Made by a program: the position numbers and the translations under genes
Shown: positions 17,877 through 23,218 of the stretch, one piece after another
Numbering within the stretch: position 1 is the stretch's first letter
How the letters are laid out: each line of letters begins with the position of its first letter
IMG/VR virus record: IMGVR_UViG_3300020215_000119
Span: 1 to 29,168 of that record
Reading direction: 5' to 3' (one strand)
DNA from: a virus
DNA length: 29,168 nucleotides
Notes under the pieces: generated by a model
What the model was told of the DNA's origin: nothing
Seen by the model: only the letters and a program-made list of their open reading frames with translations
Databases searched by the model: none

Positions 17877-18773
17877 ATGTCACTCCAACCCCTAGACGAC
17901 ACCACGAAGACCTACTTCGAGACGCGCGGCCAGGTCACGCCTCCTGTTGAGCCTCCCGCAGAACCGGTCCAGGAACCGGTTGCTCCGGTAGAGCCGCCGC
18001 AGGAACCTCAGGAACCGACCGAGGAGAACAAAGGCCAGTTCGTTCGCCTTGGCGCTCTGCATGAGGAAAGAGCAAAGCGCCGTGAGCTTGAGAGGCAGCT
18101 TCAGGAACTTCTCCCGATCAAGGAGCGCTATTCCAAACTGGAGTCTCGTACCGAGGAAATCCTGCGCCGCATGCAGGAGGACCAGGCCCCGCAGATCCCG
18201 GAGTGGGAGAAAGACCCGCTCGGCCATACGAAAACCCGTATCGAGACCCAGGAAGAGCGCCTTGCCCGTTTGGAACGGGAAGAGGAACAGCGCCGGGAGA
18301 TGGCGCAGCATCAGTCGGAATACATGCAGTTCCGGAACGTGGTGGCTCAACATACCCACCAGTTCATGGCGAAGACGCCGGACTATGCCCAGGCGTACCA
18401 GCATCTGATGACCATGCAGGCGGAAGCCCTGAAAGAAGCCGGTTTCCCGCCGGAGCAGATCCGGGTCACCCTGGAGCAGTACGAAACCGCCATTGCCCGG
18501 AAGGCTCTTGAGGATGGCGTAAACCCGGCGGAACGGGCTTATGCAATGGCGAAGAAGATGGGCTACAAGGGCGCTCAGGCCCCCACCCCATCTCATGCCG
18601 AGCAGAAGCTTCAGAACATCGCCGCTGGCCAGAGGGCATCCGCGTCCCTCTCGGACGCCGCGGGGTCCGCTAAACCCCAACTGGATGCCAAAACCCTGGC
18701 GGAAATGCCGGACGAGGACTTTGCCAAGATCTGGGCCAACCGGAAACAGGTACGCCAGATCATAGGCCGTTGA
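17877..18773 (+). CDS. Scaffold-like protein upstream of the capsid gene
   Basis: The protein is 298 residues. It has a Pro/Glu-rich N-terminal segment (PPVEPPAEPVQEPVAPVEPP), a long charged coiled coil (about residues 45-150, RRELERQLQELLPIKERYSK then RLEREEEQRREMAQ), then a helical domain and a basic tail (KIWANRKQVRQIIGR) able to bind capsid subunits. Acidic-helical-basic architecture directly before the major capsid gene is what internal scaffolds of N4-gp56/P22-type heads show. AAGGAAGGA is the ribosome site. The stop codon lies inside the -35 element of the capsid promoter. Confidence 0.8.
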   Translation: MSLQPLDDTTKTYFETRGQVTPPVEPPAEPVQEPVAPVEPPQEPQEPTEENKGQFVRLGALHEERAKRRELERQLQELLPIKERYSKLESRTEEILRRMQEDQAPQIPEWEKDPLGHTKTRIETQEERLARLEREEEQRREMAQHQSEYMQFRNVVAQHTHQFMAKTPDYAQAYQHLMTMQAEALKEAGFPPEQIRVTLEQYETAIARKALEDGVNPAERAYAMAKKMGYKGAQAPTPSHAEQKLQNIAAGQRASASLSDAAGSAKPQLDAKTLAEMPDEDFAKIWANRKQVRQIIGR

Positions 18774-18799
18774 CACCGCCTGGCGGTGTGTTCTATGAT
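18770..18799 (+). promoter_or_regulatory. Sigma-70-type promoter for the major capsid gene
   Basis: TTGACA (18770-18775, perfect -35) and TATGAT (18794-18799, 5 of 6 to the -10 consensus) are separated by 18 bases. The TGA of the scaffold gene is within TTGACA. The predicted transcript start is near 18806, exactly before the first leader repeat, giving a 5' leader of about 116 bases before ATG 18922. Confidence 0.65.
18773..18789. promoter_or_regulatory. 17-bp perfect dyad inside the capsid promoter spacer
   Basis: ACACCGCC-T-GGCGGTGT is symmetric around 18781 and lies between the -35 and -10 elements, overlapping the last three -35 bases. A protein binding here could block or, MerR-style, remodel the promoter. 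In RNA from upstream it would also fold as a 6-bp hairpin with a 5-base loop and could act as an attenuator, though no T-tract follows. Confidence 0.55.
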
Positions 18800-18806
18800 T
18801 ATCGAA

Positions 18807-18856
18807 CATTCGTCTGACCCGCGTTAGAGGTCATTCGTCTGATCCCGCGTCAAGGG
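18807..18856 (+). repeat. Tandem repeat in the capsid leader, complementary to the start region
   Basis: Two copies about 25 bases apart (18807 and 18832) share CATTCGTCTGA and then CCCGCGT, with one extra T in the second copy. The core TTCGTCTG (18809-18816 and 18834-18841) is the exact reverse complement of CAGACGAA at 18914-18921, the eight bases directly before the capsid ATG. Either copy could pair with and hide the start region in the mRNA. Confidence 0.75.
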
Positions 18857-18921
18857 GTCGTGCGTGACGCAGCCAGCGTTATTGGCCGCTCCCCGACAAT
18901 CTTTGATGTGAGACAGACGAA

Positions 18922-20016
18922 ATGGCTGATACTGCCTTTGGGACGAATGACTCCCTTACAGTCAAGCTGTGGCGTCGTGGCCTCTTCCATGAGGCCCTGA
19001 ACGAGACCTGGTTCCAGAAGTTCATCGGCGAGGGTTCCGACAGCATGATTCAGCTGTTGACGGAAACCCAGAAGCAGTCCGGTGACCGTATCCGCGTTGG
19101 CCTGCGCATGCAGCTGACCGGTGCGGGTATTCAGGGGAACGGGACTCTGGAGGGCAATGAAGAGTCGCTGACGACCTACAGCGATGACCTCCTGATCAAC
19201 TACCTGAAGCACGCCGTCCGTTGGGATGCCTCGATTTCCCAGCAGCGCGTGGCCTTCGAACTCCGCGAAGAAGCGATGATGGGTTTGAAGGACTGGTGGG
19301 CTGATCGTTTCGACACCGCGGTGATGAACCAGCTGACCGGCAATACCGGCCAGGCTGACACCCGCTACACCGGCAACAACGCGACCGTCGCTCCGACCGC
19401 GACCACCCGTATCATCACGGCTGGCCCGAACCTGGACAACACGGAAGCCTCGTTGTCGGCCACCACGACCTTCTCGCTGAACTTCCGCGAGATTGATCGT
19501 TGCGTGGCGATCGCCAGGACCGGAACGGTGGGCACTACCCCTCCGATCCGACCCCTGAAGATCAACGGTGACTCGTACTACGTGATGTTCATTCACCCGT
19601 ATCAGACGTACCAGCTGCGTCGCGATACGACTACCAACAACTTCATGGACATCGCCCGTCAGTCTCTTGCTGGCGCTCTCCAGCAGGGCAAGGCTGCGAT
19701 CTTCGATGGTGCCTTGGGTATCTATAACAAGGTCATCCTGCACGAATCGAATCGCATCCCGATCATCACGGGCACTCCGAACTCGGGCGCTGCGAACGCC
19801 TTCCGTCGTGCGGTGTTCTGCGGCGCTCAGGCCGCGGCCATCGCGTTCGGCAAGAAGTCGTCCAAGGACGATGAGATGGAGTGGGTGGAGCAGAAGTTCG
19901 ACTACGAAGACAAGATCGGCGTCAAGGGTGCATCCACCTTTGGCGTGAAGAAGATGGTCTTCAACTCGACGGACTTCGCGACCATCGCGGTCTCCGGCTA
20001 CGCGCCGACGGTGTAA
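18922..20016 (+). CDS. Major capsid protein, N4-gp56 family
   Basis: The protein is 364 residues. It forms the icosahedral shell (HK97-type fold). N4-gp56 features in order: an N-terminal NDSLTVKLWRRGLFHEALNE, FIGEGSDSMIQ, DRIRVGLRMQLTG, GNEESLTTYSDDLLINYLKH and VRWDASISQQRVAFELREEA, with the YYVMFIHPYQTYQLRRDT and GALGIYNKVILHESNRIPI segments later. The end has EWVEQKFDYEDKIGVKG and FGVKKMVF. No strong Shine-Dalgarno precedes the ATG, which is notable for the most abundant virion protein; instead the leader carries repeats complementary to the start. It has its own promoter and is co-transcribed with the next gene. Confidence 0.93.
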   Translation: MADTAFGTNDSLTVKLWRRGLFHEALNETWFQKFIGEGSDSMIQLLTETQKQSGDRIRVGLRMQLTGAGIQGNGTLEGNEESLTTYSDDLLINYLKHAVRWDASISQQRVAFELREEAMMGLKDWWADRFDTAVMNQLTGNTGQADTRYTGNNATVAPTATTRIITAGPNLDNTEASLSATTTFSLNFREIDRCVAIARTGTVGTTPPIRPLKINGDSYYVMFIHPYQTYQLRRDTTTNNFMDIARQSLAGALQQGKAAIFDGALGIYNKVILHESNRIPIITGTPNSGAANAFRRAVFCGAQAAAIAFGKKSSKDDEMEWVEQKFDYEDKIGVKGASTFGVKKMVFNSTDFATIAVSGYAPTV

Positions 20017-20560: not shown

Positions 20561-21991
20561 ATGTCGGTCAAAGCCGGACGCGAAGCCTACGACAGAGGCG
20601 ACCGGGAACACGCTCTGTTGGAGTTCTATGAGGCTCTGAACAAGGACTTCAACGATCATCAAGCCTTGTTCTATGCCGGCACTCTTCTGTTGGAGAAGGG
20701 GTGTAACGGCGTCGCGGCGAACCTCCTATCAAGGGCCTTGCAGTGCAAGCCCGGCAACCCCGACGCTCTTACGAATCTAGCCGCCTGTTACAAGAAGGAG
20801 GAGAACTGGGACGGCGCCGAGGAAATCTGGCGCATGGCCTACGACGCCTTTGAGAGTCAGGGCGACAGGGCCGCGATGGCGGGGACTCTTTCGAACATCG
20901 CCTCTGTCTACGTCCACAAGGGGGATATCGAAGAGTCGCTTCGGATATTCGACCACGCGGTGTCGATCTGCCCAACCCAGATCGATGCGCTTGCTAATCG
21001 AACAATGTCCTACCTGTGGATGGGTCGATGGAAAGAGGGTTGGGCTGACTATGACTACCATTTGAAGCTCGGCACTCGTCACCCCCGGCCGTACATGGTC
21101 GATGGTCAGACCATTCCGGCGTGGGACGGAACACCGGGGAGAAAGCCGGTGGTCTATGGGGAGCAGGGGATCGGAGATGAGATCCTGTTCGCCTCGATGT
21201 TTCAGGATGTCCAGAGAATATGCCCGGATGCAGTTCTCGACTGTCATCCGAGATTGGAGAAGACGTTCCGTCGTTCGTTCGGGCCGCGGTGTTACGGGAC
21301 GAGAAAGTCAACCAACATCGGCGAATGGTTCTCGCAGGAGATGCCGGACTGCGCGATTCCGATAGGGTCGCTCGGCAAGTTCTTCCGGAACGACCTGAAG
21401 GATTTTCCGGGAACACCCTATCTGATACCCGATCCTGAACTGTTGGAGAAGTTCAACGGCCAGCGCAGAGGCAAACCACGGATCGGAATTTCCTGGGCCG
21501 GGGGTTCGAAGAAAACCGGGAAGAGCGTTCGTTCGATTCCTCTGGATGATTTCGTCCCGTTACTGAAGTCGGTGGATGCCGACTGGTACTCCCTTCAGTA
21601 CACGAAGCCTGCTGGAGAAGAGGTGGACAAGCTGGAGATGGAGACCGGAATCCATATCCGGCACTTCCCGGACCTGGTTCAACACACCGATTACGACCGG
21701 ACGATTTCATTCGTCGCGTCCCTCGATCTTGTCATCACCTGCTGCACATCGATCCTCCACGTCGCGGGGGCTCTTGGTGTGCCGGTGTGGATTCTCACTC
21801 CATATGAGTCCGCCTGGAGGGAGTCGGGGAACGACGGGAAGCGCGGACCAAACATGCCCTGGTACTCCTCCGCCAAACTCTATCACAGAGCGAAAGAAGA
21901 CGAGACCTGGGCTCCGACAATCGAAAGAGTGAGGACTGAGCTTGTTGATCACTTCGGACTACAGAGAGCAGAACCGATCGCTGCACAATGA
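20561..21991 (+). CDS. TPR-glycosyltransferase fusion (GT41/GT9-like)
   Basis: The protein is 476 residues. Residues 1-155 are tetratricopeptide repeats (for example ALLEFYEALNKDFNDHQALF, ANLLSRALQCKPGNPDALTN, ESLRIFDHAVSICPTQIDAL). Residues 190-476 form a GT-B-like transferase: VVYGEQGIGDEILFAS (198-213), IGISWAGG (308-315) and DLVITCCTSILHVAGALG (389-406), a donor-site block shared with GT41/GT9 enzymes. It probably transfers a sugar to a protein or glycan, the TPRs presenting the acceptor. It begins 10 bases after the capsid terminator, with GGGAG as ribosome site. A capsid or tail protein acceptor is inference. Confidence 0.85.
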   Translation: MSVKAGREAYDRGDREHALLEFYEALNKDFNDHQALFYAGTLLLEKGCNGVAANLLSRALQCKPGNPDALTNLAACYKKEENWDGAEEIWRMAYDAFESQGDRAAMAGTLSNIASVYVHKGDIEESLRIFDHAVSICPTQIDALANRTMSYLWMGRWKEGWADYDYHLKLGTRHPRPYMVDGQTIPAWDGTPGRKPVVYGEQGIGDEILFASMFQDVQRICPDAVLDCHPRLEKTFRRSFGPRCYGTRKSTNIGEWFSQEMPDCAIPIGSLGKFFRNDLKDFPGTPYLIPDPELLEKFNGQRRGKPRIGISWAGGSKKTGKSVRSIPLDDFVPLLKSVDADWYSLQYTKPAGEEVDKLEMETGIHIRHFPDLVQHTDYDRTISFVASLDLVITCCTSILHVAGALGVPVWILTPYESAWRESGNDGKRGPNMPWYSSAKLYHRAKEDETWAPTIERVRTELVDHFGLQRAEPIAAQ

Positions 21992-22541
21992 ACGGCCTGA
22001 TTACGGCTCTTATGGAGCCAAATGGGCTGAGACTGTTTGGGGTCTAGCCCATCAGTACAATGCGGCGTCGGTCCTCGACTACGGGTGCGGGAAGCAAACC
22101 CTGCACAACGCTCTGCGCGAACAAGAGCAGATGTTCCGGTTCAAGGCCCGTTTCTGCTGCAAGGAACACCAGTGGATGCATGCCGGATGGGCCGACTATG
22201 ACCCGGCGATTGCTGGCCTGGATGATACGCCTCAAGCGGCTGATCTAGTGGTCTGCACCGACGTTCTCGAACACATCGAACCTGAGTGCTTGGATGCTGT
22301 GTTGGATGACATCAAGCGCTGCACTCGGAAAGCGGCGTTCCTGGTGATTGCGACTCGTCCAGCGAAGAAGACTCTTCCGGATGGAAGAAACGCCCATCTC
22401 ATCCAACAGCCGATCGGTTGGTGGCTGAACCAGTTGATGAACAGGTTCACCGTCCGACAGGTGCAGAACTTGGGTGGTGAGTTTGTGTTCATCGGCGAGC
22501 CGAATACGGAGATCACTCTGACGGCGGAGAGGGCGGCATGA
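21942..22541 (+). CDS. Class I SAM-dependent methyltransferase (TTG start)
   Basis: The protein is 199 residues. Motif I VLDYGCGK is at residues 44-51, and the post-motif DLVVCTDVLEHIEPE (101-115) is typical of phage and biosynthetic small-molecule methyltransferases; there is no DPPY, so it is not a DNA enzyme. TTG at 21942 with GAGGA upstream gives the family-like N-terminus LITSDYREQNRSLH; the start overlaps the glycosyltransferase gene by 50 bases. It likely modifies a sugar or related small moiety with the flanking glycosyltransferases. The substrate is not determined. Confidence 0.85.
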   Translation: MLITSDYREQNRSLHNERPDYGSYGAKWAETVWGLAHQYNAASVLDYGCGKQTLHNALREQEQMFRFKARFCCKEHQWMHAGWADYDPAIAGLDDTPQAADLVVCTDVLEHIEPECLDAVLDDIKRCTRKAAFLVIATRPAKKTLPDGRNAHLIQQPIGWWLNQLMNRFTVRQVQNLGGEFVFIGEPNTEITLTAERAA

Positions 22542-23218
22542 ACCGCGTCTTCGTCGGGTTGGACCCACGTCAGGTCATCTCCTACACGGTCCTGTCAACA
22601 AGCATCGTCACTCGGACTGCCGAGCCTGTGTTGGTCGGACCGATCAGCACGATGAACACGCCATGTAACCGGAAGGGACTTACTCCATTCACTTGGGCAA
22701 GGTTCCTGGTTCCGTGGCTCTGTAACTACGAAGGATGGGCGCTCTTCCTGGACGCGGACATTATGCTCCGAGGAGATGTGAATGAGCTGTTCAAGCTCGC
22801 AGATGAAAAACATGCGGTCATGGTGAGCAAGAACCAACTCAAGTTCGAGTGGGCCTCGGTGATGTTGTTCAACTGTGCCCATCCAGACAATCGGAAACTG
22901 ACTCCGGAGTTCGTGGAACATGCAGAAGGGCTTCATCAAATCCTATGGACTGACGCCGTTGGTGAACTCCCCGGAGAGTGGAACCATCTCGTTGGATACG
23001 ATGCTCCCAACCCAGACGCAAAGCTCGTCCATTACACACAAGGCGTCCCGGCCTGGCCGGAAACCGCAGATACGGAGCATTCCGCTGAGTGGCAGCAAGA
23101 GGCACAGTTAGCCTTCTCTGCCCAGCCATGGCACATGATCATGGGCAACTCCGTTCACGCAAAGCCTGTGTATGAGCGCCTTCTGAGAGAAGGAAAGATC
23201 AAGGGTGCCGCACAATGA
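22538..23218 (+). CDS. GT8-like glycosyltransferase
   Basis: The protein is 226 residues. It has a GT-A-type layout: N-terminal RVFVGLDPRQVISYTVLSTS, then FTWARFLVPWLCNYEGWALF and the metal-binding DxD in LDADIM (D72, D74), VMLFNCAHP, GELPGEWNHLVGY and HYTQGVPAW near the end. This matches phage and bacterial glycosyltransferases of the GT8 type that use nucleotide-sugars. The ATGA overlap with the methyltransferase implies co-translation and a shared pathway. The acceptor is unknown. Confidence 0.85.
   Translation: MNRVFVGLDPRQVISYTVLSTSIVTRTAEPVLVGPISTMNTPCNRKGLTPFTWARFLVPWLCNYEGWALFLDADIMLRGDVNELFKLADEKHAVMVSKNQLKFEWASVMLFNCAHPDNRKLTPEFVEHAEGLHQILWTDAVGELPGEWNHLVGYDAPNPDAKLVHYTQGVPAWPETADTEHSAEWQQEAQLAFSAQPWHMIMGNSVHAKPVYERLLREGKIKGAAQ

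Follow-up and report, generated by a model that had tools for sequence, protein, structure and literature searches.

Few products of a phage are more abundant than the major capsid protein, an abundance that leads one to expect an open start region on its mRNA and makes a buried start unexpected. To our knowledge, the matching of capsid protein to scaffold and portal levels in tailed DNA phages is poorly understood. The locus described here raises the question of whether the leader of a capsid gene folds back on its own start codon, and, if it does, whether related phages do the same and what this could mean for capsid synthesis. The starting material was sequence only: a 29,168-base IMG/VR record (IMGVR_UViG_3300020215_000119), hereafter the window, in which a terminase, a P22-type portal and a PF13252 (N4-gp56-type) capsid gene are all present.

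The capsid gene of the window (18922..20016, plus strand) encodes 364 aa and starts with the ATG at 18922. A TPR protein, a methyltransferase-like gene (phrog_24759) and a match to phrog_28018 lie inside the structural operon at 20561-23218, where they are placed between the head and tail genes. The sole promoter-like site found in 2.5 kb of the window is a sigma-70-type site, TTGACA-18-TATGAT (18770..18799, plus strand), with 11 of 12 matches; because this site ends at 18799, a transcript start is predicted near 18806, which leaves 116 bases of leader upstream of the ATG. This agrees with the start predicted in an earlier, sequence-only reading of the window, as does the lack of a canonical Shine-Dalgarno sequence, that reading having noted no strong one. 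Relatives show an excess of TTGACA at -160..-110 (7 versus 0.8 expected), and a promoter-like match of at least 9/12 was reached in just 19 of 132 relatives, so that the sigma-70 promoter was not accepted as conserved in general.

Predicted folding of the capsid leader in the window

Two tandem repeat copies with a spacing of 25 and 93% identity lie in the leader: copy 1, CATTCGTCTGACCC (18807..18820, plus strand), comprises a linker, TTCGTCTG, and the 5' strand of a first hairpin, and copy 2, CATTCGTCTGATCC (18832..18845, plus strand), comprises the same linker and the beginning of a second hairpin. The linker, at 18809-18816 and 18834-18841, is in both copies the exact reverse complement of CAGACGAA (18914-18921), directly 5' of the capsid ATG, which confirms the observation from which the sequence-only reading set out. 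Besides the eight bases noted there, a second stretch is paired, CGCGTCAA (18846-18853) with TTGATGTG (18903-18910). Pairing of 18806-18891 with the 27 bases 5' of the ATG gave a duplex of -30.0 kcal/mol, compared to -14.6 +/- 2.7 kcal/mol in shuffles, and none of 3000 shuffles was as good; against other 27-mers of its own genome the window duplex gave p = 0.013.

The MFE of 18806-18960 was -65.1 kcal/mol (z -4.84). In this fold TTCGTCTG at 18834-18841 pairs with CAGACGAA and CGCGTCAA pairs with TTGATGTG, resulting in a long fold-back, whose 5' arm (18834..18866, plus strand) is best paired in these two stretches and whose 3' arm (18890..18924, plus strand) is the capsid start region, including TTGATGTG, CAGACGAA and the ATG. 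The predicted cost of opening the start region was 23.3 kcal/mol, and 7.7 kcal/mol after a cut at -48, by which the 5' arm is removed. The cost drops stepwise as the 5' end passes 18820, 18831, 18840 and 18848, with 10.0 kcal/mol remaining at 18840 and 7.5 kcal/mol at 18848.

The sequence-only reading did not include an array of three hairpins in the same leader, between which TTCGTCTG serves as a linker. Hairpin 1 (18815..18833, plus strand) reads TGACC-CGCGTTAGA-GGTCA, with GCGUUA in its loop; hairpin 2 (18841..18859, plus strand) has the stem GATCCC/GGGGTC around GCGTCAA, with GCGUCA in its loop; and hairpin 3 (18869..18889, plus strand), the tip of the fold-back in the MFE fold, has the stem GCAGCCA/TGGCCGC around GCGTTAT, again with GCGUUA. 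Hairpin 2 and the 5' arm have bases in common, which makes hairpin 2 and the fold-back mutually exclusive in the window. A span-limited fold of the window reached -42.1 kcal/mol, versus -65.1 kcal/mol for the full fold, placing the two states about 23 kcal/mol apart.

The proposal that the two repeats offer alternative pairing partners did not hold up as a general feature. Repeat 2 of the window finds its partner before the ATG, and 18942-18951 can serve as a partner for repeat 1; this second pairing was not robust, as MFE folding with added upstream context folds repeat 1 locally instead. Among relatives, pairing of leaders with +3..+40 was not enriched. The tandem repeat is particular to the window phage, relatives having no conserved repeat, and the outcome that would have spoken against the fold-back, a repeat kept while its complementarity is lost, was replaced by the reverse: complementarity is kept with differing sequences. 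The tandem repeat itself, the second pairing partner and a role in timing are not established.

Conservation of the fold-back and predicted ribosome access

Relatives were collected by capsid-based scans of viral contigs and from four phage genome records, those of Rhizobium phage RHph_Y1_10, Paracoccus phage KLEP18-1, Microcystis phage Mae-JY35 and ctDrO704 (Manatee Spring), resulting in 156 unique leaders, of which 135 were non-redundant. A scan of genome contigs returned zero relatives, and no close relative of the window was among those collected. Since the leaders were mostly unalignable between groups, we chose alignment-free tests. In the principal one, each start region was paired with its own leader and with swapped leaders of other phages, with correction for row and column effects; the arms had to be at least 33 nt apart, a minimum imposed so that local hairpins would not be split, as a cut at -32 might have done.

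Start regions paired better with their own leaders, with z of -10.8 (n = 63), -4.5 in a held-out set (n = 32) and -6.4 in a third set (n = 40), and z of -13.9 for -27..+12 over all 135 leaders; the same test placed inside the gene, as a control, gave z of 0.0 to -3.1. Ranked among 16 GC-matched partners, the cognate leader came first in 30 of the 135 cases versus 8.4 expected, and a Watson-Crick-only alignment score of at least 9 was found for 37 of 135 cognate pairs versus 2.4 non-cognate. Scanned by position, the pairing target peaked at -10 (z -12.7), was strong at -20 and 0, and was at background at -60..-30 and from +10 to +400; leader pairing with codons beyond +10 was therefore rejected as a general feature. 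The 5' arm peaked at about -70 (z -11.6), and MFE folds paired the start region with upstream sequence in many relatives. A narrow test of -12..+3 only had shown a mean longest run of 5.1 versus 4.9, and the reading drawn from it, that the fold-back is not conserved, was overturned by these wider tests. The idea that the leader folds back on the start region is in this way backed, as a predicted pairing, across the clade.

Looking for compensatory changes in related leaders, as the sequence-only reading had proposed, gave a divided result. Alignable subgroups contained such changes, over the SD GGAGC between L263 (CGTTAGCTC/GAGCTAACG) and L240 (CGTTTGCTC/GAGCAAACG), and between L198 and L132 in alignment A2, both in small groups with modest counts; the covariation score of alignment A3, also a small group with modest counts, was matched by 15 of 500 shuffles. 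Pairwise covariation over the long-range pairs of the MFE folds, in contrast, was at about chance, with 18 of 39 double changes remaining paired, and G-U and A-C combinations in the long-range arms, compared to tell RNA from DNA pairing, numbered 50 versus 57. TTAAC before the SD co-occurred with an upstream GTTAA (odds ratio 5.6, p 0.0007), some 3' arms being anti-loops, and many relatives' leaders had no strong fold-back.

The predicted consequence for ribosome access was compared with that at 237 other gene starts from the same contigs. The median cost of opening -18..+4 was 12.5 kcal/mol for capsid starts versus 8.9 kcal/mol for these controls (p 7e-15), and the two were about equal once the transcript was cut at -48. 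The 5' part added at least 5 kcal/mol in 45% of capsid leaders versus 4% of controls. Taken together, the models show a conserved complementarity of the leader to the ribosome-binding region together with a predicted occlusion of that region.

Insertions were observed around relatives' capsid genes. Group I introns (RF00028) lie within or at the start of several of them (L134 1013-1217 and 1897-2134; L136 1135-1382; L061 1212-1455; L062 2707-2950). The capsid gene of ctDrO704 (L013 2278-3091, MW202512.1) has, after about codon 32, an insertion with an HNH-type ORF, which matched no Rfam intron at the gathering threshold; since the gene is split by this insertion, its annotated start (3091) omits the N-terminus. 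In RHph_Y1_10 and KLEP18-1, HNH endonuclease genes also separate the scaffold region from the capsid leader (L015 2298-2873; L016 2208-2786), which gives capsid leaders the appearance of homing hot spots.

CGUNA-loop hairpins in capsid leaders

An unbiased count of loop pentamers placed CGTTA and CGTCA at the top and CGTGA and CGTAA at or near it. Hairpins with CGTNA loops were present in 33 of 65 leaders of the first set versus 0.8 in shuffles (reverse-complement control, 5), in 16 of 32 held-out leaders versus 0.75 expected, and in 25 of 40 leaders of the third set (reverse-complement control, 2); overall, 72 of 135 leaders carried them, versus 7 of 135 in the reverse-complement control. The loops follow the consensus (R)CG(U/A)NA, in which the fourth base is unconstrained (C42 T32 A28 G22), and the stem sequence is free to vary, 71 of 104 doubly changed pairs remaining paired in pairwise comparison versus about 38% by chance. 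G-U exceeded A-C in the stems (31 versus 16, p 0.04), and relatives show an excess of TTCGT and TTCGC at -110..-60 (31 versus 11.2 and 28 versus 13.1, respectively). Clusters of at least two CGUNA hairpins numbered 25 in 587 kb, all but one of them (24/25) in a capsid leader on the sense strand, and their last hairpin ends 33-66 nt upstream of the ATG. In 24 of the 135 leaders no CGNNA hairpin was detected. A row of CGUNA hairpins in the capsid leader is shown by computation, and, judged by the comparative evidence, the predicted clade-wide RNA element is real.

The relation of this array to the fold-back differs between the window and the clade. Of 50 cases, 24 had a 5' arm overlapping a hairpin, a share not above that of random windows; a strict either-or of array and fold-back was therefore rejected for the clade, and in these models the two-state switch as such is not conserved. 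At the capsid starts of L206, L208, L210 and L215 alike, CCGTGATG is complementary to CATCATGG, the context of the start codon, and in most of them CCGTGATG lies within a small CGUGA-loop hairpin; this pairing is possibly the simplest form of the switch.

Proposed mechanism, alternatives and known systems

We consider it probable that the leader is a cis-acting translational attenuator, the window being one instance of a clade-wide RNA element in podovirus-like phages. In the proposed mechanism, a 5' arm about 70 bases upstream would pair with the ribosome-binding region and the start codon, with the last CGUNA hairpin as the tip, and capsid translation would stay low until the fold-back is avoided or opened. 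From the folding models we infer that the mRNA does adopt this pairing and that initiation is lowered by it; that the leader times or limits capsid synthesis is plausible. In the window, hairpin row and fold-back would be alternative states, with hairpin 2 and the 5' arm competing, and the unpaired TTCGTCTG linker may give the start region a toehold for strand invasion of hairpin 2. The conserved CGUNA loops might be read by a protein, of phage or host origin, that favors one state. A conserved loop with a free fourth base suggests protein recognition, and the CGUNA hairpins are likely docking sites for a factor. The separation of about 23 kcal/mol between the window states indicates that control is more likely exerted during folding or via several bound molecules, a single-ligand equilibrium switch being the less likely arrangement in the window.

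It is also possible that the leader is above all an operator for a phage or host RNA-binding protein, which would sit on the CGUNA loops and provide assembly feedback, the fold-back being a by-product or a co-repressor. The conserved loop, its free fourth base and the arrays of two to four hairpins are consistent with this, as are distant capsid relatives with a CsrA-like gene directly before the capsid gene and a compact hairpin over the start region. Such a gene is annotated in BcepIL02, DC1, Pavtok and Parlo, and similar unannotated ORFs were recognized by eye in SopranoGao, Itty13 and Skulduggery, with a weaker one in Mwe-JY25. CsrA-like ORFs 5' of the capsid gene lie at L298 309-503, L307 97-288, L310 123-305, L311 17-211, L299 266-475, L306 110-295 and L309 109-294; some of those among L298-L311 are annotated merely as hypothetical, with a capsid start hairpin alongside. 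The JC1 authors class the CsrA-like gene as a moron gene (PMC9144972), whereas our observations suggest that phage CsrA regulates capsid and is not a moron gene. Against an operator of this kind, a search for a phage CsrA-like protein in the window and 27 relatives (PF02599, alignment A5) returned no match, the loops read CGUNA without GGA, and no candidate binder emerged; the first two of these results speak against a leader of the CsrA/Rsm-controlled class, the gene search bearing on phage-encoded CsrA and not on that of the host. A more elaborate version, which we regard as rather improbable, would have an RNA-binding protein tied to assembly recognize the array and thereby match capsid synthesis to the supply of scaffold or portal, a new class of phage RNA switch standing in for the CsrA-like gene of distant relatives.

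Timing by transcript length is doubtful. In T4 gene e, late promoters just 5' of the RBS yield open transcripts (PMC3014915), and by analogy read-through transcripts with the 5' arm would be silent and late starts between the arms translated. This mechanism is documented for gene e, and truncation of the window leader past 18848 does open the start region in the predictions; however, the only promoter-like site of the window lies upstream of both arms, as does the TTGACA enrichment of relatives. No promoter motif was enriched between the arms in relatives, a search that phage-specific promoters could escape. Harder to credit is that the structures mainly affect how stable the mRNA is or how it is processed (through 5' protection, RNase III or RNase E), for which the stable hairpins, the predicted 5' end, the high expression of the gene and the long intergenic gaps (median 148 nt) would speak, but which leaves unexplained both the precise targeting to -30..+10 and the fixed loop sequence. 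Very improbable is a role at the DNA level, as a site of replication, packaging or recombination, or else a pairing that arose by chance because the leader is GC-rich; this would be in keeping with a window duplex that is just a 1.3% tail within its own genome and with the clustering of HNH endonucleases and group I introns around relatives' capsid genes, but is opposed by the strand-specific loop orientation, a pairing target precisely on the start region, the excess of G-U over A-C in hairpin stems and replication in two independent sets.

The attenuator reading suggests, from predicted folds, that an RNA element absent from existing catalogues holds back shell-protein production in a large family of tailed phages. 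An element with a conserved loop that is common to cultured Rhizobium and Paracoccus phages makes this control of capsid directly testable.

Sequestration of an RBS is a known principle, and the CGUNA/fold-back element itself is uncatalogued in Rfam and the literature searched. No family of Rfam 15 was matched at the gathering threshold in the window and 15 relatives, no conserved core resembling a riboswitch-type aptamer was seen, the searched literature on RNA motifs at capsid genes held no match to the element, and the catalogue of 104 structured RNAs of Weinberg 2010 mentions no capsid motif. The predicted stem, at -41 kcal/mol, would be too stable for simple melting as an RNA thermometer.

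The starts of T4 genes e, soc, 49 and I-TevI are sequestered in RNA helices with the upstream leader (PMC3014915), and in our predictions the SD and/or AUG is likewise held in a helix with the upstream leader, the pairing that defines the gene e class. Unlike gene e, no promoter was seen between the arms here, and, unlike all of these T4 cases, the helix is joined to a CGUNA hairpin array and lies at the major capsid gene. The T4/RB69 gp43 operator consists of a hairpin about 40 bases upstream, with a UAAC loop, and a sequence overlapping the RBS (PMC3014915); like it, the present element has a short hairpin, conserved in its loop bases, at a distance of a few tens of bases 5' of the start codon, and it differs from this single UAAC hairpin in having up to four CGUNA hairpins, at a different gene. 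The closest parallel in gene context is offered by the distant PF13252 phages, in which a compact hairpin buries the start region (10-17 kcal/mol for 12 of 13). The Lessievirus phages BcepIL02, DC1 and JC1, as well as Pavtok and Parlo, have a homologous PF13252 capsid and a start region buried 5' of the ATG; those phages with a CsrA-like gene use a compact hairpin of about 45 bases without a CGUNA array, whereas the window clade has the array and, in the window and 27 relatives searched, no CsrA-like gene. The CsrA-like gene beside the capsid gene of these distant relatives points to a wider theme, the control of capsid at the RNA level.
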